Source: Kovacikia minuta CCNUW1
GTDB taxonomy: Bacteria; Cyanobacteriota; Cyanobacteriia; Leptolyngbyales; Leptolyngbyaceae
Reading direction: 5' to 3'
DNA: 64,000 nucleotides
NCBI RefSeq assembly: GCF_020091585.1
Contig: NZ_CP083583.1
Location: forward strand, 868,001-932,000
Shown: positions 9,084-54,672 of the stretch, in pieces
Position numbering within the stretch: position 1 is the first letter of the stretch
Layout of the letters: each line of letters starts with the position of its first letter
The notes under the pieces: generated by a model
The model's input: the letters and a program-made list of their open reading frames with translations, nothing else
What the model was told of the DNA's origin: nothing
The model's database searches: none
Made by a program: the position numbers and the translations under genes

Positions 9084-9827
9084 TTATTTACTTGAAAAGA
9101 GTTTATAGAGTTGGGGCACGGGGCTGCTGAATTCGGGATGGCGGAATTTCCAGATTGGGTCTTCAATGCCAATTTCCTCGAAGGTACGATCGCGGCTGAA
9201 ACAGGAGGGACATTCACCACATCCTCCTTCAATGCCAAGACTGCAATCGTGGGTTAATTCAAAAATTGCTTGAAACTGGTCTCCCATCACGTTCATCGCC
9301 AAATTTGCACTTTCGACCCGAGTGAGATGCATCAGGGGCGTATGGATCTTGAAGGCTGCCGGATCACGCCATAACCCTTCACCCAGGACTCTGGCCATTA
9401 AATCAATAAAATCCTGACGGGGATTAAAATCCTTTGCGAAGTCCTCTCTGCAAACACCCATAACCAGATCCTTGATCCCCCTTGCTGCAGCCTGATTTGC
9501 TGCCAGGGTCAGAATCAGGATATTTTGAGCAGAGGGGAAGTCGGACTCTCCCTCCTTTGGGTGCTGAGGTGTGGATGCGGGTTGCTCGTGCAAGGAACTT
9601 TGAAAGTAGGGCGAAGAGAGCGTGGGCGTCAGATTGATATCAACAATGTCGTGGCTGGCGAGGGAGAGCATTTCGGCAACTGCGATCGCACTCTCAATCT
9701 CAATTTGACCATGGTGCCCATAACTACAGGTAATCCCATGAACTTCATCAAACTGCTGGCACGCCAATGCAGCACAGGTTGTAGAGATTTGCCCTCCGTC
9801 CAGGACACATAGAGCTTTGGTCGGCAT
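9084..9827 (-). CDS. QueC-like (7-cyano-7-deazaguanine synthase family) protein with a degenerate PP-loop
   Basis: QueC makes preQ0 from CDG with ATP and ammonia. The fold is recognisable: SYGHHGQIEIESA in the place of the family's DYGQRH, an NILILTLAANQAA helix, GVCREDF, ELTHDC, and four zinc-type cysteines at C195, C203, C206 and C209 (GGCGECPSC). The nucleotide loop, normally SGGxDSTT, is DGGQISTT at residues 10-17, so the leading Ser and the conserved Asp are lost. ATP chemistry may be changed or absent. ATG 9827 is preferred because GAGGAG lies just upstream; an ORF extends to 9854. Convergent with the PadR gene. May be a paralogue with another substrate. Confidence 0.75.
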   Translation of the reverse strand: MPTKALCVLDGGQISTTCAALACQQFDEVHGITCSYGHHGQIEIESAIAVAEMLSLASHDIVDINLTPTLSSPYFQSSLHEQPASTPQHPKEGESDFPSAQNILILTLAANQAAARGIKDLVMGVCREDFAKDFNPRQDFIDLMARVLGEGLWRDPAAFKIHTPLMHLTRVESANLAMNVMGDQFQAIFELTHDCSLGIEGGCGECPSCFSRDRTFEEIGIEDPIWKFRHPEFSSPVPQLYKLFSSK

Positions 9828-9973
9828 AACGAACTCCTCAACAGGCACAAACAAGGTGGGATCAAGATCGGGTTCCCAATTTACGGGAGCAGCACTGGAA
9901 AATTTCCTGAAAATGTAAACTTACATGAATAGACTTACCAGCCAAACCTTCAAATCTGCTATTGGAGATGATT

Positions 9974-10264
9974 TCAGGTTGTTTGGCTAAAATGAAGCTG
10001 CCCTGGGGTCTCTGGAAATACAGGGGTAGAAAGCGCCTGGGGAACATAATTTCTGAACGGGAGCCGCTGCTGACTTGCCAATATCTGGGCAATTTTTAAC
10101 GCACTTTCATAAAGCAGAGAGCTGCAATAGATCTGACCTTCGGTTGATTCATCCCGCCCCGAACGGAGCTCGATCGCCTCTTCCAGACAATAAACGGTAA
10201 ACATAGGTTTTGGCTGATCCATCGCTTGGCTAAACCCGGAAAGGTACGTAGATAAACACAACAT
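9974..10264 (-). CDS. Hypothetical protein, 96 residues
   Basis: Not recognised. The internal segment MFTVYCLEEAIELRSGRDES followed by LYESALKIAQILASQQRLP reads like a small folded cytosolic protein, with no signal peptide or membrane segment. Two in-frame ATGs exist (10264 and 10222, MDQPKP); neither has a strong ribosome-binding site. It lies 147 bp upstream of the QueC-like gene on the same strand, so co-transcription is possible. Coding status is moderately likely from amino-acid composition alone. Confidence 0.5.
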   Translation of the reverse strand: MLCLSTYLSGFSQAMDQPKPMFTVYCLEEAIELRSGRDESTEGQIYCSSLLYESALKIAQILASQQRLPFRNYVPQALSTPVFPETPGQLHFSQTT

Positions 10265-10550
10265 GGTTAATGCAAATACACCTGGAAGCTGAAAAAGGGG
10301 ATGTAGTTGGAAAGCGTCCCTGGGAGTCTTGGGCTAGAAAGAACGAGTTGATTGAGGGCAACATTTTACTTAAATGCTTGTATTTAGCTTGACATTCAAC
10401 TTCGTTCTCAACAATCGCAGTTTAGGCTGCTAAGAAAGAACTTAAGGGATGGTTGTTTTCCTTGGCACAAATCAGCTCCACCCGGATTTTCAGCCCTTAC
10501 CCCCTTGAATGCGTGGAGAGTGATAAACTCGCTTAAAATCAATAAAGTGC

Positions 10551-10604
10551 TTATCTTCAGAGAAAGCCTCATTATCTTCGGAAGAAAAGCCTTATCTTCG
10601 AAGG
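10551..10604. repeat. Three imperfect TTATCTTC direct repeats in the 10265-10657 gap
   Basis: TTATCTTCAGAGAAAGCC, TTATCTTCGGAAGAAAAGCC and TTATCTTCGAAGG occur in tandem 65-120 bp before the AAA-like gene. Each also holds a short GAA/TTC inverted repeat. They could be regulatory. The remainder of this 393-bp gap shows no gene or RNA that I recognise. Confidence 0.4.
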
Positions 10605-10669
10605 TTGCATTTGTAAAATTTGATTCCTCTTCATTACTATATTTGCTCTAACTATACTTGTTGCTATCA

Positions 10670-12034
10670 ATGAATCGACCAATACGAAGGCGACGACGAG
10701 GAGTGGTGCTGACTCCTTGGGGATTGCAAAAACTTCAAGCTGCAAGATCCAGGGTGGAATTGGAGAAAAATTCTGGTAACCGCTTCACTCTGGAAGATCT
10801 GGGTGACCGCACCGGGCTATCCGTCGATACGTTAATCAAAGTTTTTGCCCGCGATATAGGGGTCGATCGTCAAACATTAAGAAATTGCTTTAGCGCATTT
10901 GATCTGGTTTTAGAGCCAGATGATTTCGTTACCCCAGAACCACGCCCCCAGGAAGTAGAAATTCCGGTTCCGACACCAGACCCAGACCCGTGGGAACCAG
11001 AACCACCGGGTGGACAGGTTCCATTAGACTCAGTTTTTTATATTGAGCGCATTGCTGCCGGAGCTGCCACACGCACCTCGATCGAAGCTGATTGTCAGCG
11101 AGCGATCGCCCAGCCAGGCGCACTAGTTCGGATTAAAGCTCCCCGCCGAACGGGAAAAACCTCCCTCATCGCAAGAGTTTTGCACCAGGCAGCAAACTTT
11201 GGCTACCAGGTTGTGTCCTTAGACTTTCAATTGGCAGACAAAGCAATTTTCCACGATTTAGATAAGTTTTTACGCTGGTTCTGTGCCAGTGTTGGGTTAG
11301 GGATTCAGTTGCCCAACCGTATTTCAAACTATTGGGACGAGTTGTTTGGGAGCAAAGTAAGCTGCAAGATCTACTTTGAGCAGTACCTCCTTGCTGAAAC
11401 CACAACTCCTGTCGTGCTGGCTTTAGATGATGTAGACCAACTATTTCCCTATCCTGATCTGGCGGACGAATTTTTTGGATTGCTGCGTGCCTGGCACGAA
11501 GAGGCAAAAAACCGGGACATCTGGAAAAAACTGCGATTGGTCGTTGCCCACGCAACAGATGTTTATATCCCCCTGAGTGTGCATAAGTCGCCGTTTAACG
11601 TTGGGCTACCAGTTGAATTGCCGCCGTTTACACCCGAACAGGTGCAGGAACTCGCTCAACGGCATGGGTTAAATTGGTCAGCCCAACAGACAGAACAGTT
11701 GCTTAACTTTGTTGGGGGGCAACCCTACCTGACGCGACTGGCTATCTATCACGTCTGGCGTCAAGATACGACTTTAGAACAATTGGTGCAGATGACTCCA
11801 ACCGCCACTGGAATTTATCGTGACCACCTACAGCGACAACTCTGGATTTTGCAGCAGGATGTTGAACTAGAGAAGGCATTTTGTCAGGTTTTGATGGCAG
11901 AGGCTTCAGCCGAACTCGATTTAATTCAGGCATTTAAGCTGCAAAGCATCGGATTAATCGAATTGCGGGGCAAGCAGGCTAAACCAAGTTGTCAACTTTA
12001 TTCTCAATACTTTCGTAGCTATCTGAAGAAGTAA
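10670..12034 (+). CDS. AAA-like (AAA_35-type) ATPase with N-terminal vMAP-like helical domain
   Basis: Residues about 1-85 begin with an Arg-rich stretch (RPIRRRRRG) followed by LTPWGLQKLQAAR and FTLEDLGDRTGLSVDTLIKVF, which resembles the N-terminal domain of cyanobacterial vWA-MoxR-associated (vMAP) proteins. A proline/glutamate-rich linker follows (about 85-120). The ATPase has Walker A RRTGKTSL, Walker B VVLALDDVDQLF, and a GGQPYLTRLA motif typical of the AAA-like family. These modules usually sit in signalling or conflict proteins; the client is unknown. The start is ATG 10670 (TTG 10658 is also in frame). The carotenoid oxygenase gene lies 171 bp downstream. An AAA-like module recurs at the C-terminus of the giant kinase at 14489. 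Confidence 0.8.
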   Translation: MNRPIRRRRRGVVLTPWGLQKLQAARSRVELEKNSGNRFTLEDLGDRTGLSVDTLIKVFARDIGVDRQTLRNCFSAFDLVLEPDDFVTPEPRPQEVEIPVPTPDPDPWEPEPPGGQVPLDSVFYIERIAAGAATRTSIEADCQRAIAQPGALVRIKAPRRTGKTSLIARVLHQAANFGYQVVSLDFQLADKAIFHDLDKFLRWFCASVGLGIQLPNRISNYWDELFGSKVSCKIYFEQYLLAETTTPVVLALDDVDQLFPYPDLADEFFGLLRAWHEEAKNRDIWKKLRLVVAHATDVYIPLSVHKSPFNVGLPVELPPFTPEQVQELAQRHGLNWSAQQTEQLLNFVGGQPYLTRLAIYHVWRQDTTLEQLVQMTPTATGIYRDHLQRQLWILQQDVELEKAFCQVLMAEASAELDLIQAFKLQSIGLIELRGKQAKPSCQLYSQYFRSYLKK

Positions 12035-12143
12035 TTAGAAATCTTACTCTTTATTCTTAATTCTCAGTTCTTCTCAGCAATTTACTCTCTTTAATATCCT
12101 CTTCAGGAAAGCTAGAATCGACCTGAAAATAAACGCTGCCCGC

Positions 12144-12173
12144 CGCTCCTTCATAAAGTTTGATAAAGGAGCG
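12144..12173 (+). other. Hairpin in the leader of the carotenoid oxygenase gene
   Basis: CGCTCCTTCAT pairs with ATAAAGGAGCG across an 8-base loop, 33 bp before the ATG at 12206. No T-run follows, so it is not an obvious intrinsic terminator; it may be a 5' UTR structure or a small inverted-repeat operator. Confidence 0.4.
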
Positions 12174-12205
12174 CGGTCGTAGTTCTATCCCCTCTAGAGG
12201 AAGCA

Positions 12206-14317
12206 ATGGTTCAAGAATTACCCCGCCCATTTGAGTCTCAAGTTTTCAACTGCTGTCCATTGGTTCCCCAATCCATTCTGACGGCGAATCGATATGAACT
12301 GACCGATACCAGGCTAGAGATTGAGGGAACCTTGCCAGAGGATTTGCACGGACATGTGTTTATTGTCGAACCCTGTGGCTCGATCGATTCGAATGGATTG
12401 CCCTACGCAGATGGCAATTCAATTTTGGGGGGGGATGGCATGATTTACCGTTTAGACTTTGACCACCAGGGGGAGGTGAGGCTGACATCCAGGTTAGTAA
12501 AACCACCCGATTTCTTTGCCGATAAAGCAACTCAGGCTGGAAGTGAATATGAACAGTACCAGTTTTGTAATCACGGCATCACCCGCTTTTCGCTTTCCCT
12601 GGGCTGCCGTAATCAGTTAAATACAGCTTTTTTGCCCATGAACTTTGGGGACAATACGGGCGATCGCCTGCTGGTCACCTATGATGCGGGTCGTCCCTAT
12701 GAGATTGATACGGAAACGTTAGAGGTGGTTACACCTGTGGGAGCGAATCAGGAATGGGTGGGGGAACTGGATGGGCTGAATGTCCCCTTTCAACTCTATA
12801 TGAGTACGGCGCATCCTGCATTTGATGAGTTTACCCAGCAAATGTTTACAGTTAACTTTGGTCGATCGCTCGGCAGCTTTCTGGAAACAATTCCGGCAAT
12901 TTTCGACATTAATCAATTGCCGCAGGAGTTGGATGATGTATTGTCTGCGATCGCGGATATATTTCGAACGGGCTTCCTGAAAGATATTTTTGTCACTTCT
13001 CTTAAGATCTTTCAAAACATCTGGCAACTCTATGCCAATTGGATTGAGAAGTTGATTGGAATTGATATGGAAAACTTCCTCTATCTCATTCGTTGGGATG
13101 GGGCAGGTTCAATTGAGCGCTGGAAGCTGGTGCTTCCCGATCGTTCTCCAGTACGAATTCAGCAATGCATCCACCAAATTGGGGTAACTCAAGATTATGT
13201 GGTGATTATGGACACTGCCTTTACCGTGGGAACCGATCAAATCATCAACAATCCGTTTCCCAGGAGCAAGGGAGGCGACCAACTGTTCAGACAAATCCTG
13301 GAGCGCCCGGCTGCTCCCGATTCCACGATTTACATTGTGCGACGGCGTGATTTGCAAGCAGGTCAGAAGCCCGCCTGTAGCCAGCATGAAGTAGAAGTGG
13401 TCGTCCAAAAAGTAACGATTCCCCTGGCAACTGCCCACTTTCTGCTGGATTATGACAATCCAGACGGCAACATGACGCTACATGCAGCCCACATTTGTGC
13501 AATGGAAGTCTCTGATTGGCTGCGTGAGCATGATTCCCTTGCCTTTGAACCGCACCCACCCGTACCCCGTCGCCTCTGTGGCATGATCCTGAACGAAGTG
13601 GATATTGGGCGGGTTGGCAAATATGTCATTAATGGCGAAACGGGTAGTTTTGTTGCATCTTCTGTGATTACCCATGATCCCTGTACCTGGGGCGTAGAGC
13701 TGTTTGCTTACATTACCAGAATGCCGACAACGGGGTTACCTCCCAAACGGCTTGAGAATATTTATTGGTGTACGCTGGGACTCTGGAAAGAGTTGATGAC
13801 CCAATTCATTTTCGATTTGTTTGAGGACTATCCTTATCAACTCATCCCGCGATCGGAAGTGCTGCGTCGGGCAGAAACAGGCATCCCGGCTTGCCTATTC
13901 CGGCTCGACACCGGATTAATGGAAATCGCGGATCACTATCTTTTGCCAGCCAGCCATTTAGTGCTTTCCCCCCAATTTGTGCCGCGTGGGGATGGGGAAG
14001 ATTCGACCAATGGCTATCTACTCTGCACGGTTTTCACCCCAATTCGAAGTGAAGTTTGGGTATTTGATGCCCAAGATCTGGCACGAGGTCCCCTCTGTAA
14101 ATTGCACCATCCTGCGTTTGTGTTTGCTTTCACACTACATACTGCCTGGTTGCCAGAAATTGGTCGTCGCCAAGCCAGCTATGCGATCGGTGTGCGACAG
14201 GATTACGATTATTTAGTTAAGCGCAAGTCCCCGGAGATTCAACAGTTCTTCGAGAAAGAAGTCTACCCCCACTTTGAAGCCAATCTCAACAACACAGATA
14301 GCATAGATAGCAGGTGA
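12206..14317 (+). CDS. Carotenoid oxygenase (RPE65/CCD family), unusually long
   Basis: Non-haem iron dioxygenase that cleaves carotenoids or apocarotenoids at a double bond. Family features: NRYELTDTRLEIEGTLPEDL-type entry, GGDGMIYRL, and candidate iron-binding histidines at H203 (AHP), H323 (IHQIG), H426/H429 (LHAAH) and H645 (LHTAWLPE). 703 residues against about 480-530 for usual bacterial members; part of the excess is a hydrophobic, helical insert at about residues 220-295. AGAGGAAGCA precedes ATG 12206. The last codon and the TGA lie inside a heptamer repeat (AGG TGA C), so the C-terminus is set by the repeat. Substrate not predictable. Confidence 0.88.
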   Translation: MVQELPRPFESQVFNCCPLVPQSILTANRYELTDTRLEIEGTLPEDLHGHVFIVEPCGSIDSNGLPYADGNSILGGDGMIYRLDFDHQGEVRLTSRLVKPPDFFADKATQAGSEYEQYQFCNHGITRFSLSLGCRNQLNTAFLPMNFGDNTGDRLLVTYDAGRPYEIDTETLEVVTPVGANQEWVGELDGLNVPFQLYMSTAHPAFDEFTQQMFTVNFGRSLGSFLETIPAIFDINQLPQELDDVLSAIADIFRTGFLKDIFVTSLKIFQNIWQLYANWIEKLIGIDMENFLYLIRWDGAGSIERWKLVLPDRSPVRIQQCIHQIGVTQDYVVIMDTAFTVGTDQIINNPFPRSKGGDQLFRQILERPAAPDSTIYIVRRRDLQAGQKPACSQHEVEVVVQKVTIPLATAHFLLDYDNPDGNMTLHAAHICAMEVSDWLREHDSLAFEPHPPVPRRLCGMILNEVDIGRVGKYVINGETGSFVASSVITHDPCTWGVELFAYITRMPTTGLPPKRLENIYWCTLGLWKELMTQFIFDLFEDYPYQLIPRSEVLRRAETGIPACLFRLDTGLMEIADHYLLPASHLVLSPQFVPRGDGEDSTNGYLLCTVFTPIRSEVWVFDAQDLARGPLCKLHHPAFVFAFTLHTAWLPEIGRRQASYAIGVRQDYDYLVKRKSPEIQQFFEKEVYPHFEANLNNTDSIDSR

Positions 14318-14360
14318 CAGGTGACAGGTGATAGGTGATAGGTGGCAGGTGGCAGGTGAC
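14312..14360. repeat. Seven AGGTGAC-type heptamers (STRR) overlapping a stop codon
   Basis: AGGTGAC, AGGTGAC, AGGTGAT, AGGTGAT, AGGTGGC, AGGTGGC, AGGTGAC run without gaps. The first unit contains the stop codon of the carotenoid oxygenase. GTTCACT repeats follow near 14389-14405. Confidence 0.85.
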
Positions 14361-14488
14361 AGTTGTCCGTTTGGCAATTGTTCACTGTTCACTGTTCACT
14401 AGTCACTGTTTCTCAACTTAAAACTGCAAGCTGCTCCATTCTCCCCATCTCCCCCCTCCCATTCCCCATTCCTCCTCAGGTAACCCCG

Positions 14489-17400
14489 ATGATTACACTT
14501 CCTGGTTATGAAATTCTTGAAAAGATCCATGAAAGTAGTAGAACGGCTGTGTATCGAGGGTACTGCCAGCAACGGCAACAGCTAGTTATCATCAAAATTT
14601 TGAGTGCCGAGTATCCAACCTTGGAGGAAATTACCCATCTGCGGCACGAATATCTGATTCCCGGTGATCTTAATTGTGAGGGGGTGGTTAAACCCTATAG
14701 CCTGGAGCCTTACCAAAACGGCTATGCGCTGGTCTTGGAAGATTTTGATGGCGAATCCCTGAAAGAGGTGTTAAGTAGCGCCCCCCTATCCCTACCAGTC
14801 TGCTTAGAGATTGCGATCGCCCTCGCCCATACCCTTGAAACCCTGCACCAAGCCCACATCATCCATAAAGACATCAAGCCCAGCAATATCATCACGAATT
14901 TGGGCACCAATCAGGTCAAACTGACCGACTTTGGGATTGCCTCCCGCCTTTCCCAGGAGAGCCAGATTCCCCAAAATCCAAATTTAATTGAAGGTACGCT
15001 GACCTACATGTCGCCAGAACAGACGGGCAGAATGAACCGTTCCATCGACTACCGAACAGACTTCTACTCCCTGGGTATCACGCTCTATGAAATGCTAACC
15101 GGAAATGTGCCGTTTACTAGCCCAGACCCAATGGAACTGGTTCATTGCCATATTGCGAAGCAACCTTTACCACTCACTCAGGCTAGAAGGGAGAGGGCAG
15201 ACCTTGACGCGAGCGCTCAGTCAAACGAGGGCAGCGAACAAGACGCGGAAATGACAAGACACGGAGATGGGAAGAATTCAAAATTAACTCAAAACTCAAA
15301 ACTCAAAACTCAAAACTCTCTTTCTCAAACCCCACTCTCCAGGGATGCCGTTCCCGAAGTTGTCTCCAACATCGTCATGAAGCTGTTGGCGAAGAATGCT
15401 GAAGATCGCTATCAGAACGCTGCTGGTCTCAGGTTTGATCTGGAAACTTGCTTGCGCCAATTGCAAACAACAGGAACGATCAAGAACTTTACATTGGGTA
15501 CCCGTGATTATGGTAGCCAGCTTCTCATTCCTCAAAAGCTTTATGGCAGAGAACAGGAAGTTGCCGCGTTAATGGCAGCCTTTGAACGAGTCTCTGGAGG
15601 GATGAGGGATGGGGGCGGAGGGATGACCACACCCCACACCCTACGCCCCATACCCTCGCGGAGTGAACTGATGCTGGTCACGGGCTACTCTGGGATTGGC
15701 AAAACTTCCATTGTGCATGAAGTCCATAAACCGATCGTAGAAGCACGGGGATATTTTATTGCCGGGAAGTTTGACCAGTTCAAACGCAGCATTCCCTATG
15801 CTGCGCTGATTCAAGCATTTCAAGAGTTAATCCGCCAACTTCTGACCGAAAGTGAGGTGCAAATTGCCCGTTGGAAAGCCAAATTACTGGATGCATTGGG
15901 TGTCAACGGTCAGGTGATTATCGATGTCATTCCAGAGGTCGAACTCATCCTTGGATCTCAGCCAGAAGTGCCAGATGTGGGATCTGCTGAGGCTCAAAAC
16001 CGCTTTAACCGAATCTTTCAGCAGTTTGTGAGCGTTTTCTGCCAGGATGAGCATCCCCTGGTTATTTTTCTAGATGACCTGCAATGGGCAGATTTGGCAT
16101 CCCTGAAGCTGATCCAGCTGTTGACAACCGACGACAGTAGACGGTATCTGCTTTTGATTGGTGCTTACCGTGACAATGAAGTTACCCCTACCCATCCGCT
16201 GGTTCAAATGCTGGAAAAGATCCAGGCGACGGGTGCTGTGATCAACACAATTACCGTTGGTCCGTTGCAAAGCCACCACACCATTGAGCTTGTGGCAGAA
16301 ACGTTGAACGAATCGATCGGCTCTACTCGAATTACTCCGCTGGCTGAACTGGTATTTAACAAAACCCAGGGCAACCCTTTCTTTATCACTCAGTTACTCA
16401 AGACGCTTTATGCTGAGAGCCTATTGCTCTATCAGGTAGATACTGACAGTTGGCAATGGGATATCCAGCAAATTCAAGCGGTTGGAATTACTGACTACAC
16501 GATCGTTGAACTGATTTCACGGAACATTCGTAAGTTGCCGCCCGCAACACAAACGATTCTTCAATTGGCAGCCTGCATAGGGAACCAGTTCAATTTGGAT
16601 ATTCTGGCGATCGTGCATGAAAGCTCTGACTTTGTGACTGCAACACAACTATGGGCAGCCCTGCAAGCCGGGTTAATTCTGCCCTTGTCCCATACCTACA
16701 AAGTTCCCCTTGTCTTTGAGGAAGCTGATTCCACCACGCTTAATATCAACGAAATCACCGTTGGTTATCGGTTCTTGCACGATCGGGTGCAGCAGGCAGC
16801 CTATTCCCTGATTCCCGAGTCTGAGAAAAAAGCAACGCACTTAAAAATTGGTCAGCTTTTGCTGGAGAACACAACCCCTGAGGCACAAAAAGAAAATATT
16901 TTTGCATTAGTTAACCAACTCAATTTTGGCACTGACCTGCTAACAACCCAGGCTGAAAAAGATGAGTTGGCAAAACTCAATCTGATCGCAGGTCAGAAGG
17001 CGAAGGCTGCAATGGCTTGCGAAGCAGCCGTAAACTACTTGAATGTAGGTCTTAGTTTGTTAGCCTCAAACAGTTGGCAACAGCAGTATGAATTAACCCT
17101 TCTATTTTTTTTAGAAACAGCGGAAGCAGAATATCTCAACACTAACTTTGAACAAGCCAATAGAATTTGTGAACAGGCGCTCATCCAGTCAAAAACCGTG
17201 CTAGATACGGCGAAATTCTACGAATTAAAAATTAAGATCTATCTGGCTCAAAACCAAATCAAAGAAGCTTTAGATACTGGACTGCAAGTTTTAGAAATAT
17301 TAGGGGTTTCCCTGTCTCAAACATCCCCCGAAGCAATCAAAACGGATGAACTGGCGAAGTTGCCAATCATGACGGATGCAGACAAGGTGGCTGCCATGCA

Positions 17401-20400
17401 AATCTTGAACCTTATATTTGCACCTGCCTGTTTTGGGGACAGCGCAATGGCGATGCCTATTATTTTCACCATGATTGAGCTTTCCAGTAAATACGGAAAT
17501 TCTCCCCCCTCCGTTTATGCCTACGCAGTTTATGGTGGTGTTATCGCCTGGTCTGTTCCCGATATTGAACTGGCCTATCAACTAGGGGAACTATCCCTGG
17601 ACATTATGAATAAGCTCAATGCCCAAGAATTTAAATCCAAAGCATTGGTATCAGTTCCAATTAATATTGCCTACAAGAAAAAACATATTCGGGAAACCAT
17701 TGAATCACTTTATGAAGCCATTGAAAGTGGATTGGAAGTTGGAGATATAGAATTTGCTTGCCACGCGGCTCAATTTTACTGTGACCACCGATTCTTTATT
17801 GGTGAACATCTAGAGTCGGTTACCCAAACGCAGTCAAAATACGTTGAGCTAATTAAAAAACTTGAACAACGGCATCAACTGGGATTGGCTCAAATTTGTG
17901 CCCAAACCGTTGAAAATTTGCTGGGTCAAGCTGAAGATTGCTGCTGTCTGATCGGAACTTTTTTTGATCAGGAGAAGGCACTTCCTGAATTTCTAGCCAT
18001 CAATAACATCATCCTGATATTTAATGTTTACTTTTTTCAGGCTTTCCTTTGCTATGTGTTTGAGAAATATTCAGATTCCATTGAGAATGCAAAGTTAGCG
18101 ATTAATTATGCGGGCTACCTTCAGGCTGAGGTGGTATTTACCCAGCACAACTTTTACTATTCTTTGGCATTGTTAGCCCAATGTCCGATGGTGGGTACTT
18201 CAACAGAAGCAGGCGAGAACAGCGAACAACAGCAATGTCTGGAACAGGTTGCCAAGAATCAGCAAATGATGAAATATTGGGCGCAGTATGCGCCCATGAA
18301 TTTCCAGCACCAGTATGAATTGGTGGAAGCAGAGAGGGCAAGGGTGCAGGGAGATCGGTTAACGGCAATGGAGTATTACGATCGTGCCATTAGCGGAGCC
18401 AAAGCCCAGGGGTTTATCCAGCATGAAGCGCTTGCCTATGAACTGGCAGCCAAGTTTTATCTTGCCTGGGGACGGGAAGAAATTGCTCGGACTTATTTGG
18501 CAAAAGCCCATAACAGCTATATCCGTTGGGGAGCCGTTGCCAAAGTTAGAGCAATGGAAACCATCTATCCTCAATTGCTCTCTCTTGCATCTGCCAAGCT
18601 GGCGGCTGAAGCAAAGAGTACAAAGAATTCTGACACAGTTTCTGTGACAACAACGAGTGGGAAGACAGCGCTCGATTCAACCACGGTGGTCAAAGCTTCT
18701 CAGGTACTTGCCAGCGAAATTATCCTGGATAAATTGCTGGAAAAGTTAATTAGAATCGCGATCGAAAACGCTGGTGCCCAAATCGGATTTTTGATTTTGG
18801 AAAAAGAGGGTCAGTTGTTTGTGGAAGCCAGGGGGGAAGTGGATGAGGAAGGGGCGATCGTCCGCCAGTCAACCTCCCTGGAAACCACGCACCAGCTACC
18901 CATTTCTTTAATCAATTACGTGGTCAGAACCCGCGAGGATATTATTTTAGCGAATGCCACCCGTGAAGGTAGATTTACAACTGATCCTTACATCATTGCA
19001 ACCCAACCCCAATCGGTTTTATGTACGCCAATTCTGCATCAGGGAAAGCTGATTGGACTGCTTTATCTAGAAAACAATTTGGTAACAGGCACGTTTACCC
19101 CAGAGCGTTTGGAAGTTTTGAAACTGCTTTCGGCTCAGGCAGCAATTTCGATTGAAAATGCTCAACTTTATGAAGAGATGGTCGATCTGAATACGAACCT
19201 GGCGCGGGAAATTATTGATCGACAACGGGCGGAGGCAGCGCTGCGTGAAAGTGAACAAAAGTTGTCTCAATTTTTAGAAGCTTTACCCGTTGGTGTGTTT
19301 GTTGTTGGTGCCAATGGTCAGTCTTACTATGCCAATCAAATGGGGCAGCAAATTCTTGGTAAGGGGATTTTGCCTGAAGTAACAACCGCGCAGCTACCTG
19401 AAACCTATCAAGCCTATCAATCAGGTACAGGACAACTTTATCCGATTGAACAGCAACCGATTGTACGCGCCCTCCAGGGTGAGCCTGTAACGATCGATGA
19501 TATTGAGATTCATCAAACGAACCAGGTGATTCCCCTGGAAGTGTCAGCCAGTCCGATTTTTAATGAGCAGGGTGAGATTGTTTACGCGATCGCAGCATTT
19601 CAAGATATTACACAGCGCAAACAGGCGGAAACCGAGCGCATTCAGTTTAACCAGGAACTTGCCCTTAAGAATGCTGCGTTGCAGCAGGCAAGGGATAAAT
19701 TAGCCGAAATTAACCGCACTCTAGAAGAAAAGGTTAAAGAACGGACTCAGGAACTATCTCAAACGCTGGAAATTTTGAAAGCTACCCAGGCTGAGTTAGT
19801 CATTGAAAATGCCCTGCTCAGAAGTACTGAACAGCCCTCAAGTTTTGACTATCAGGTGGGGGGAAGTTTGCCCACGGATGCACCAACTTATGTGGTGCGC
19901 CAGGCGGATCGGCATTTATACAAAGCATTAAAAACGGGTGAATTTTGTTATATTTTGAATTCGCGCCAAATGGGCAAATCGAGTTTGCGTGTGCAAATTA
20001 TGCAACGGCTGAAAGCAGAAGGGTTTGCCTGTACGACGATCGATCTTTCAGAAATTGGGCATCGACAGGTTACTCCAGAGCAGTGGTATGCCGGTTTTAT
20101 CTACATGCTGGTGAATGGATTTGATCTGGTCGATCGGATCAATATCCGTAGCTGGTGGCAGGAACATGCTTTTCTTTCCCCGATTCAGATTCTGAGTGAA
20201 TTTATTGAGCGTGTCTTGCTTGAACACGTTTCCCAAAAAATGGTCATCTTCGTTGATGAAATTGACAGTGTGCTGAATCTAGATTTTGAAATGGATGACT
20301 TCTTTATTCTGATCCGCAGTTGCTATAACAAACGGGCAGATGATCCGAAATATAGCCGTTTGAGTTTTGTTTTATTGGGAGTAGCAACACCAACCCAATT

Positions 20401-20989
20401 GATTCAAGATAGAACTTGTACGCCATTCAATATTGGTCAAGCCATTCAACTGAATGGTTTCCAGCCTCACGAAGCCCAACCCCTGCTGCAAGGATTGATG
20501 GGTAAAGTGAGCAATCCCCAGGCTGTGCTGAAGGAAGTTTTGAATTGGACGGGTGGGCAGCCATTTTTAACCCAAAAGCTTTGTAAACTCATTCACCATG
20601 CTGCCGCTTCCCTTCCCGCAAATCATGAAGCAGAATGGATAGAATCTCTGGTGCGATCGCAAATGATTGAAAATTGGGAATCACAGGATGAGCCAGAACA
20701 TCTGAGGACAATCCGCGATCGTCTGTTACGCGATCGTACATTGGCAGGTTCACTATTACAGATGTATCAACAAATTCTGCAAGGAGAAGTTGTATTTGAC
20801 GATAGTGCCGCCCAAAAAGAGCTACTTCTATCCGGTTTGGTGACGAAGCAAACGAAAACCGCGTTGCCTTCTATGCCCATCCTCACAATCAGCAACCCGA
20901 TTTATCAAGCTGTCTTTAGTCAACAGTGGGTAACCTCACATCTTGCAGCCGTGTCAGAAACCGAATTGCTCAACCTTGGCTCAACCTGA
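14489..20989 (+). CDS. Giant Ser/Thr kinase-ATPase-GAF-PAS protein ending in an AAA-like domain
   Basis: 2166 residues from ATG 14489 ([10 protein letters not shown]). Order: Ser/Thr kinase (K36, HKD at 126-128, DFG from D147; to about 330); AAA_16-type ATPase (Walker [10 protein letters not shown] near 399, Walker [11 protein letters not shown] near 525); long helical TPR-like region (about 800-1370); GAF (about 1400-1560); PAS (about 1590-1715); coiled coil ([13 protein letters not shown]); AAA-like domain (about 1784-2150; Walker [11 protein letters not shown], Walker [22 protein letters not shown]). The layout is the cyanobacterial HstK type, but the C-terminal HisKA/HATPase is absent and the AAA-like ATPase stands in its place. 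Low-complexity inserts interrupt the kinase C-lobe (about 15180-15345) and the kinase/ATPase linker (about 15598-15660). Likely a large intracellular sensor; substrates unknown. Confidence 0.9.
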
Positions 20990-21078
20990 AACCCCTGGTT
21001 TTTCGTTTAGAAACCTGATTTTTCCAAGGTTTGTGGAGAATGGTGCAAGATTTCAGTGAACCAAATTTCCCAGAAACG

Positions 21079-22350
21079 CTACTCCTGGAGATTAACACCA
21101 AACCACTTCTGGTAGATGGCTTGATAGGTGCCATTTTCTTTCAGGGTCAGGATTGCCTGATTAATGGGTTTACGGTAAGGGCTGTTTTTGGGCATCACGA
21201 TCGCGTAAAACTGCTCTCGAAATGGGGTTCCTACGATGCGAACCTTGCCTTTATTTTCTTGAGACGCATAGTAGAGCAATAGGGGGGCAGGTGCAATGAA
21301 AGCATCCACTTTCCCATCCAGCAACGCCTGGTAGGCTTGTTCGGGTTCGGGAAATTCTGTTACTTCCGAAATGTACTGTTTCTGCAAATAACCAAGGATT
21401 GTGCTGTCTGTGATAATGGCAACTGGACGGTTTTGCAAATCCCTTAATTGCCGAATATTCCCTTGTAATTCCTGAACTGTTAATTCAGCGGTAATGGCGG
21501 CTGTAAAATACGCGACAAAGACAATGCCGATAAAAAACCAGAATAACCCTACTAACTTTCCCAGAGAACCTCTAGGCATCGTCACATCTTGCCCAATCAG
21601 CGCTAAGATTGTCCACCAAAGTGCCTGAAAAATGCCGGGTATGTAGGAGGAATTTTCAATTAATCCATCTTTATTCTGGCGTTCAAAATACCACAGGATA
21701 TGGGCTGGAATCAGCATCAACAGGCTAATAATCCCAAATAACCTGAGCAGGTTTGGATCAAGCAAACGTTCTGCGATCTCTTGCTCGACGGGTCTAAATT
21801 GTTCCGATGGGGCACGCACCATAATTTGCAACCCCTCGGCAAGAATGGGATGGGAAAAGTCGAACTCCTTTTCTCGCTGGCTGGTGATAGCGATCGCCAT
21901 AACTCCCAGGTCAGCCTGTCCTAAACGGATAGCATTCAGGATTTCAGGCACATCTGGATAGGTTTTTAGCACTGCCTGTCGTTGAATTTGGGCAAGAATT
22001 TGGCGACCCATATCAACACTAAATCCAACCATCTGTCCATTTTCCTGAAACATGTCGGGTTTAATTAACCGGATTGCAACCCGCAATGCTTGAGGGCGAT
22101 TGGGCGTGAGGGCGGGTTTGGGGGAGGGGGATGATGGGGCAGTTGGAGTAGACAACGGAGCCTGGGAATGGGCAGGTAAAGCAGCCAGCAAGACAATAGC
22201 GATCGCACCTCCTGTAATTCTCTGTCCAAAGTTGGCACGGGATGGAGCGCGATTGTAGATGCTGCTGAGTTGCGGGCGTTCATTCTTCCTGCTTAAGCCG
22301 GAATTAAGACAACGCTTTGCAGTCAAAATCCACCAGGGTGAAACATTCAT
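21079..22350 (-). CDS. Ionotropic glutamate receptor-like ligand-gated channel (GluR0 relative)
   Basis: Architecture is signal/anchor, periplasmic binding lobe S1, M1, pore loop, M3, S2. S1 has TSQREKEFDFSHPI, matching the iGluR motif in which Arg binds the amino-acid carboxylate. S2 has AIITDSTILGYL and GKVDAFIA. The pore segment is QALWWTILALIGQDVTMP, followed by FTAAITAELTVQEL, reminiscent of the eukaryotic SYTANLAAFLTV gate. The K+ filter TVGYG of Synechocystis GluR0 is absent. Located in the inner membrane with a periplasmic ligand site. A proline-rich stretch (STPTAPSSPSPKPA) joins the leader to S1. I use ATG 22350; an ORF extends to 22365. The ligand may be glutamate or another amino acid. 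Confidence 0.8.
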   Translation of the reverse strand: MNVSPWWILTAKRCLNSGLSRKNERPQLSSIYNRAPSRANFGQRITGGAIAIVLLAALPAHSQAPLSTPTAPSSPSPKPALTPNRPQALRVAIRLIKPDMFQENGQMVGFSVDMGRQILAQIQRQAVLKTYPDVPEILNAIRLGQADLGVMAIAITSQREKEFDFSHPILAEGLQIMVRAPSEQFRPVEQEIAERLLDPNLLRLFGIISLLMLIPAHILWYFERQNKDGLIENSSYIPGIFQALWWTILALIGQDVTMPRGSLGKLVGLFWFFIGIVFVAYFTAAITAELTVQELQGNIRQLRDLQNRPVAIITDSTILGYLQKQYISEVTEFPEPEQAYQALLDGKVDAFIAPAPLLLYYASQENKGKVRIVGTPFREQFYAIVMPKNSPYRKPINQAILTLKENGTYQAIYQKWFGVNLQE

Positions 22351-54615: not shown

Positions 54616-54672
54616 TTCAGTCGTCAGTTGTCAGTTATCAGTTAATTACTGTTCACTGTTCACTGTTCACTA
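54616..54672. repeat. STRR block: TCAGTTG-type and ACTGTTC-type heptamers
   Basis: TCAGTCG, TCAGTTG, TCAGTTA, TCAGTTA and then ACTGTTC three times. The GTTCACTGTTCACT part also occurs at about 14389-14405 before the giant kinase. Confidence 0.8.

Follow-up and report, generated by a model that had tools for sequence, protein, structure and literature searches.

Cyanobacteria have numerous large sensors of the HstK type. For most of them, we know of no assigned path from signal to output. This question is raised anew by a gene in the window (the whole stretch of DNA that was analyzed, 64,000 nucleotides from Kovacikia minuta CCNUW1). Its product has an HstK-type front end and ends in an ATPase domain where a histidine kinase would be expected. 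Is this ending genuine, how common is it, and what might it do in place of a histidine kinase?

Architecture of the HstK-type protein

The gene and its domains are listed below. The reading frame is open from a TTG at 14363, which is a possible start codon. The first ATG is at 14489 and the stop codon ends at 20989.

14489-20989, plus strand: HstK-type gene (Ser/Thr kinase, AAA_16 STAND, TPR-like, GAF, PAS, coil, AAA_35), 2166 aa, coordinates including the stop codon
14507-15409, plus strand: Ser/Thr kinase domain; catalytic Lys, HKDIKPSN and DFG present
15644-16159, plus strand: AAA_16 STAND NTPase with Walker A and B, followed by GNPFFITQ at 16370
18725-19153, plus strand: GAF domain (Pfam)
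19274-19624, plus strand: PAS domain (Pfam), present in some relatives and absent from others
19631-19828, plus strand: predicted coiled-coil linker; most of the aligned relatives conserve its C-terminal part
19862-20875, plus strand: AAA_35 domain, modeled as a STAND/ORC-Cdc6-like nucleotide-binding domain (NBD) plus winged helix

Pfam assigns Pkinase (residues 7-307, 6.7e-37), AAA_16 (386-557, 1.1e-42), GAF (1413-1555, 1.7e-18), PAS_4 (1596-1712, 1e-9) and AAA_35 (PF14516; 1792-2129, 4.4e-30) to the 2166-aa product. The AAA_35 match scores 105 bits (curated cut-off 27) and covers profile positions 4-322 of 331, so that the protein belongs to this family. Neither HisKA nor HATPase_c is detected by Pfam at E <= 0.01. 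The TPR-like middle has no Pfam call; it can be aligned with the corresponding part of other HstK proteins.

The kinase motifs are Lys36, HKDIKPSN (codon of the catalytic Asp at 14870) and DFG (at 14927). In AAA_16, Walker A (GYSGIGKT) is at 15683 and Walker B at 16073. In AAA_35, Walker A is at 19958, Walker B (IFVDEID) at 20246 and GGQPFLTQ at 20552. One chain thus combines one kinase and two NTPase modules, as the original prediction had it, and all these motifs fall within the coordinates given there. The exchange of the histidine-kinase output for an AAA-like ATPase, its central claim, is borne out by the AAA_35 assignment and by the missing HisKA and HATPase_c.

The order Ser/Thr kinase, AAA_16, TPR-like, GAF, PAS is that of the HstK (cbSTKIII) dual Ser/Thr-His kinases, Alr2258 and relatives (Phalip 2001, as cited in PMC2176072). 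The protein shares with them the N-terminal kinase and a GAF domain after a long STAND/TPR-like middle. It differs at the C-terminus, where it ends in coil-AAA_35 rather than in HisKA and HATPase_c. HstK paralogs in the same genome match it over most of its length (43-51% identity). This genome (8.56 Mb in three contigs, the window being on a 1.2-Mb contig) codes for other HstK-type proteins, several of which end in histidine-kinase motifs, and has separate AAA_35 genes.

Some further features of the region are recorded here. The kinase domain has a private in-frame insert of 52 aa in its C-lobe (residues 233-284, positions 15185-15340), which consists in part of heptamer repeats (CAAAACT; 15286-15310). 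Just 5' of the gene, at 14315-14400, there is repeat-like sequence (GGTGACAGGTGATAGGTG, GTTCACTGTTCACT); GTTCACTGTTCACT occurs again at 54651. Promoter and terminator predictions over 9800-21300 are at chance level. Assignment to a defense system was rejected, the PADLOC matches shown being generic kinase matches (PD-T4-6, MAD6 and similar) over the kinase domain.

Recurrence of the layout

A junction query of 168 aa (coil plus the start of AAA_35) was compared with 390 genomes of the class. As scoring was limited to nine candidates per genome, the resulting counts are lower bounds. At least 20 long HstK-type frames with an unbroken match over coil and AAA_35 were found in at least 17 of the 390 genomes, the window's included. 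Besides the one in the window, there are at least 19 full-length HstK-AAA_35 genes in 16 other genomes. All 18 full-length proteins scanned by Pfam, again including that of the window, have Pkinase, AAA_16, GAF and AAA_35. The window protein and four relatives (L068, L069, L071, L075) can also be aligned across the PAS domain. The Walker A, Walker B and GGQPFLT motifs of AAA_35 are kept across 26-32 sequences.

The layout is not a one-off; it is also found in annotated plasmid genes from Fischerella, Calothrix and Gloeothece. Named examples are BAZ71152 (Fischerella NIES-4106), WP_015173939 (Calothrix PCC 6303), WP_049802757 (Gloeothece verrucosa) and WP_012599707 (G. citriformis). Their annotations are restricted to "AAA family ATPase" or "serine/threonine protein kinase". 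The join between coil and AAA_35 is genuine and not chimeric, because genomes assembled independently of each other show residue-by-residue conservation of the junction; misassembly was rejected on these grounds.

The AAA_35 domain

The AAA_35 domain of the window protein was modeled with pLDDT 87.7 and pTM 0.84. The best folds according to Foldseek and VIA-align are 2qen (Z 19.9), 2fna (18.7) and Orc2 (16.8), followed by NLRs (about 16.5) and CED-4 (15.6). The model thus groups with the archaeal STAND-like ATPases PABY2304 and SSO1545, Orc/Cdc6, plant NLRs and CED-4 (Z 20 to 15). With these and with MalT it shares Walker A/B, a GxP-like motif and, as a prediction only, the fold of an NBD plus winged helix. 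It differs from them in its C-terminal position behind a sensor coil, in sequence (about 10-14% identity) and in having no known effector domain. The domain appears to be built like a nucleotide-dependent switch that includes a winged helix, which suggests that it may switch and form oligomers. A predicted STAND-like fold alone does not prove oligomerization or hydrolysis. The first Walker A glycine is replaced by Asn in nearly all AAA_35 members, which counts against a switch.

AAA_35 exceeds the cut-off in 91 of 292 cyanobacterial genomes, about a third. The same AAA_35 type follows REC-PAS, dCache-HAMP and a cNMP_binding domain (Pfam), and coil-AAA_35 therefore looks like a portable output module. 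In three genes, AAA_35 is in the place expected for a histidine kinase: dCache-HAMP-coil-AAA_35 (L294:510-2861, minus strand), cNMP-binding-AAA_35 (L295:6121-7941, plus strand) and dCache-HAMP-PAS-AAA_35 (L087:796-4875, minus strand).

A split relay and the origin of the exchange

Most of the closest relatives of the junction are shorter proteins (700-760 aa) and not HstK proteins. Pfam assigns REC, PAS and AAA_35 to those scanned from Aphanothece, Nostoc MS1, L288 and L291, and PAS and AAA_35 to the one from L289. In Aphanothece (L088) and Nostoc MS1 (L124), three consecutive genes code for an HstK with HisKA/HATPase, a CheY-like regulator and a REC-PAS-coil-AAA_35 protein. In L288, L290 and L291, a histidine kinase which is not of the HstK type comes first, followed by the regulator and REC-PAS-AAA_35. 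The proteins of this split relay are encoded side by side and probably act in series.

The PAS-coil-AAA_35 half of these regulators (L088, L124, L288, L290, L291) is nearly the same as that of the window protein, AAA_35 being 78% identical at best. They differ in being signaled via a REC domain and in not being fused to a kinase. Since kinase, regulator and REC-PAS-coil-AAA_35 are encoded consecutively in several genomes, the window protein looks like a single-chain version of this relay that lacks HisKA, HATPase, regulator and REC, which is a classic fusion link. Its AAA_35 is nearest to that of the Aphanothece REC-PAS-AAA_35 protein (78% identity), whereas the HstK-AAA_35 proteins from L090, L089 and L128 are the nearest relatives of its N-terminal part.

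A tree of the N-terminal parts, which is a quick tree with some long branches, needs seven changes between histidine-kinase and AAA_35 endings, and five of these are forced by well-supported forks. Thus, on this tree, the exchange arose, or was reverted, several times, and a single origin is not supported.

Relation to known systems

HstK-clade kinases without HisKA were listed in 2007 (PMC2176072). One of them, Tery_2857, has GAF and CYCc domains. It resembles the window protein in lacking HisKA and in having another C-terminal domain, which is a class III cyclase in Tery_2857 and a STAND ATPase in the window protein. In this light, the notion that HstK-clade proteins can exchange their output has a precedent. 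The exchange in the window had been proposed as possibly undescribed, and this holds for the AAA_35 form: in a literature search that ran outside most subscription journals, we found no description of the HstK-AAA_35 layout, the split relay or the linkage to enzymes.

The TOMM system kinase/cyclase fusion (TIGR03903) likewise has a STAND-like region after the kinase, and several relatives of the window protein adjoin YcaO genes. The window protein has no cyclase domain, however, and scores 114.5 bits against a TIGR03903 cut-off of 705.75.

Conserved neighbors

The HstK-AAA_35 gene is preceded by two genes of the same orientation, each separated from the next by about 170 bp.

10658-12034, plus strand: second AAA_35 gene, 458 aa, conserved partner; N-terminal region of about 110 aa, HTH-like by eye
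12206-14317, plus strand: divergent RPE65/carotenoid-oxygenase-like gene, 703 aa, directly upstream of HstK-AAA_35, conserved partner

The HTH-like N-terminus of the 458-aa protein has no Pfam family match. The same three genes occur in identical order in L134. In L128, the order is an AAA_35/guanylate-cyclase protein, the oxygenase and HstK-AAA_35; the first of these (L128:1918-4629, plus strand, 904 aa), upstream of the pair, is a fusion of a guanylate/adenylate cyclase domain to AAA_35. An AAA_35 partner is encoded within 4 kb upstream or 1.6 kb downstream at 14 of 30 HstK-AAA_35 loci but at none of 20 ordinary HstK loci (p = 2e-4). Controls for this and the other neighbor comparisons are unmatched for phylogeny and the sets contain mutual relatives, so that p-values are to be read as guides.

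The 703-aa protein matches the RPE65 profile (6.9e-36, Pfam). Four histidines (203, 323, 411, 645), putative iron ligands, are invariant in five locus-linked relatives. By profile and histidines, the protein is a probable member of the carotenoid cleavage oxygenases. It is long compared to most relatives with solved structures (about 490-500 residues); in a single-sequence search, these align to its C-terminal part alone. An HstK-type gene is within 1.5 kb of the oxygenase gene in 9 of 28 non-seed relatives, as opposed to 0 of 29 for an unrelated control gene (p = 8e-4). The linkage is not universal, as about two thirds of the relatives have no HstK gene within this distance. In several linked relatives, what matches in the flanking sequence is the GAF end of the HstK-type gene. 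Therefore, the oxygenase gene is either downstream of the HstK-type gene or the two are divergent; corresponding HstK frames were found in G305 and G170. Because of these arrangements, the link may be to HstK proteins in general, beyond the AAA_35 form.

Other HstK-AAA_35 genes have different enzymes in place of the oxygenase. In most loci, the gene directly upstream codes for an enzyme or for a member of an enzyme cluster: an oxygenase (5), a lipoxygenase (2), a radical SAM/SPASM protein (3), a PvdP-like tyrosinase (1) or a YcaO/amidohydrolase cluster (8), the latter often with an unknown 350-aa protein. Among the control HstK neighbors, only a fatty-acid hydroxylase is of comparable flavor.

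The unknown protein (326-397 aa) is encoded between the YcaO/amidohydrolase genes and HstK-AAA_35 (L137:12968-14014, minus strand; also L093, L094, L095, L139, L140 and L142). It has a strictly conserved PPxPYxPL motif followed by a C-terminal pair or triplet of Ser/Thr/Cys, and it could serve the YcaO enzyme as a large protein substrate. The structure model of a 349-aa representative is poor (pLDDT 64).

Two related arrangements were observed. In three genomes of one genus (coded g188), an HstK-type kinase gene starts within 1.5 kb of a lipoxygenase gene (L233, L235, L237). On large cyanobacterial plasmids, HstK-type genes adjoin YcaO/TOMM or amidohydrolase genes (L124, L126, L127).

Possible mechanism and alternatives

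We propose that the protein is a one-chain signaling machine, in which an HstK-type front end acts through the coiled coil on a C-terminal STAND/ORC-type AAA_35 domain and not on a histidine kinase. We give this reading an even chance. A small molecule would be bound by the GAF/PAS (or TPR) part and would alter the coil. In ordinary HstK proteins, the coil would be the element that drives the histidine kinase; here, the signal would pass to AAA_35. The altered coil would switch AAA_35 between nucleotide states and oligomers, so that direct mechanical coupling would take the place of phosphotransfer. The switched domain might then assemble with the adjacent AAA_35 protein (10658-12034), which possibly carries the effect to DNA. 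We infer ligand sensing, transmission by the coil and switching of AAA_35 from the anatomy of the protein. The most speculative steps are that the kinase domain tunes the complex by phosphorylation, and that the neighboring oxygenase either makes the signal or is itself the target of regulation. We offer ligand synthesis by the neighboring enzyme as a hypothesis; control of the enzyme locus by the sensor is no less likely.

The latter thought leads to an alternative that concerns only the role of the neighboring enzyme and is compatible with an AAA_35 switch. The protein may be a regulator of a locus for a specialized metabolite or a modified peptide, sensing some other cue and switching on the neighboring enzyme genes without sensing their product. 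We consider this a serious possibility, although somewhat short of even. It fits with the enzymes or enzyme clusters directly upstream in most loci, and with a same-strand gene within 400 bp upstream of 23 of 27 AAA_35-type genes but of only 7 of 19 ordinary HstK genes, which are unmatched for phylogeny (p = 0.001). However, no DNA-binding domain was found in the HstK-AAA_35 protein itself. A regulator also leaves unexplained that unrelated enzymes share one sensor type, which a product-sensing pair does not prove either.

A second alternative places the output at the other end of the chain. The N-terminal Ser/Thr kinase, which retains its catalytic residues, would be regulated by GAF, PAS and both ATPases, with AAA_35 as a second input or a scaffold. 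Ordinary HstK proteins already have one STAND ATPase between kinase and GAF, and HisKA, whose place AAA_35 takes, might itself feed back on the kinase. Yet the REC-PAS-AAA_35, dCache-HAMP-AAA_35 and cNMP-AAA_35 proteins have no Ser/Thr kinase, so that AAA_35 is their sole candidate output, and a preceding REC domain puts AAA_35 on the receiving side of a signal. We judge this alternative rather unlikely.

It is extremely improbable that the 3' half was recently and passively fused and has no function, or that it stems from an assembly join: the low-complexity heptamer repeats in the kinase domain do indicate that the gene tolerates in-frame insertions, but the recurrence of the layout already contradicts such an origin, as do the junction, conserved in dozens of independent assemblies, the conserved AAA_35 motifs and the 6.5-kb frame, which stays open.

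The one-chain reading can be extended. Coil-AAA_35 would be an unrecognized general output module that replaces histidine kinases behind many sensors, and the HstK forms would be enzyme-plus-receptor pairs. In these, the neighboring enzyme (oxygenase, lipoxygenase, tyrosinase, radical SAM or YcaO system) would make the signal, the HstK front end would bind it, and AAA_35 would form a hetero-oligomer with the neighboring AAA_35 protein. This wider scheme is a long shot.

The natural series from a separate kinase, regulator and REC-PAS-AAA_35 protein to the fused HstK-AAA_35 protein suggests that a phosphorelay can be replaced by an ATPase switch. This makes AAA_35 a candidate for a widely used sensory output of cyanobacteria. 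The conserved neighbors are concrete candidates for partners of HstK-AAA_35 proteins.
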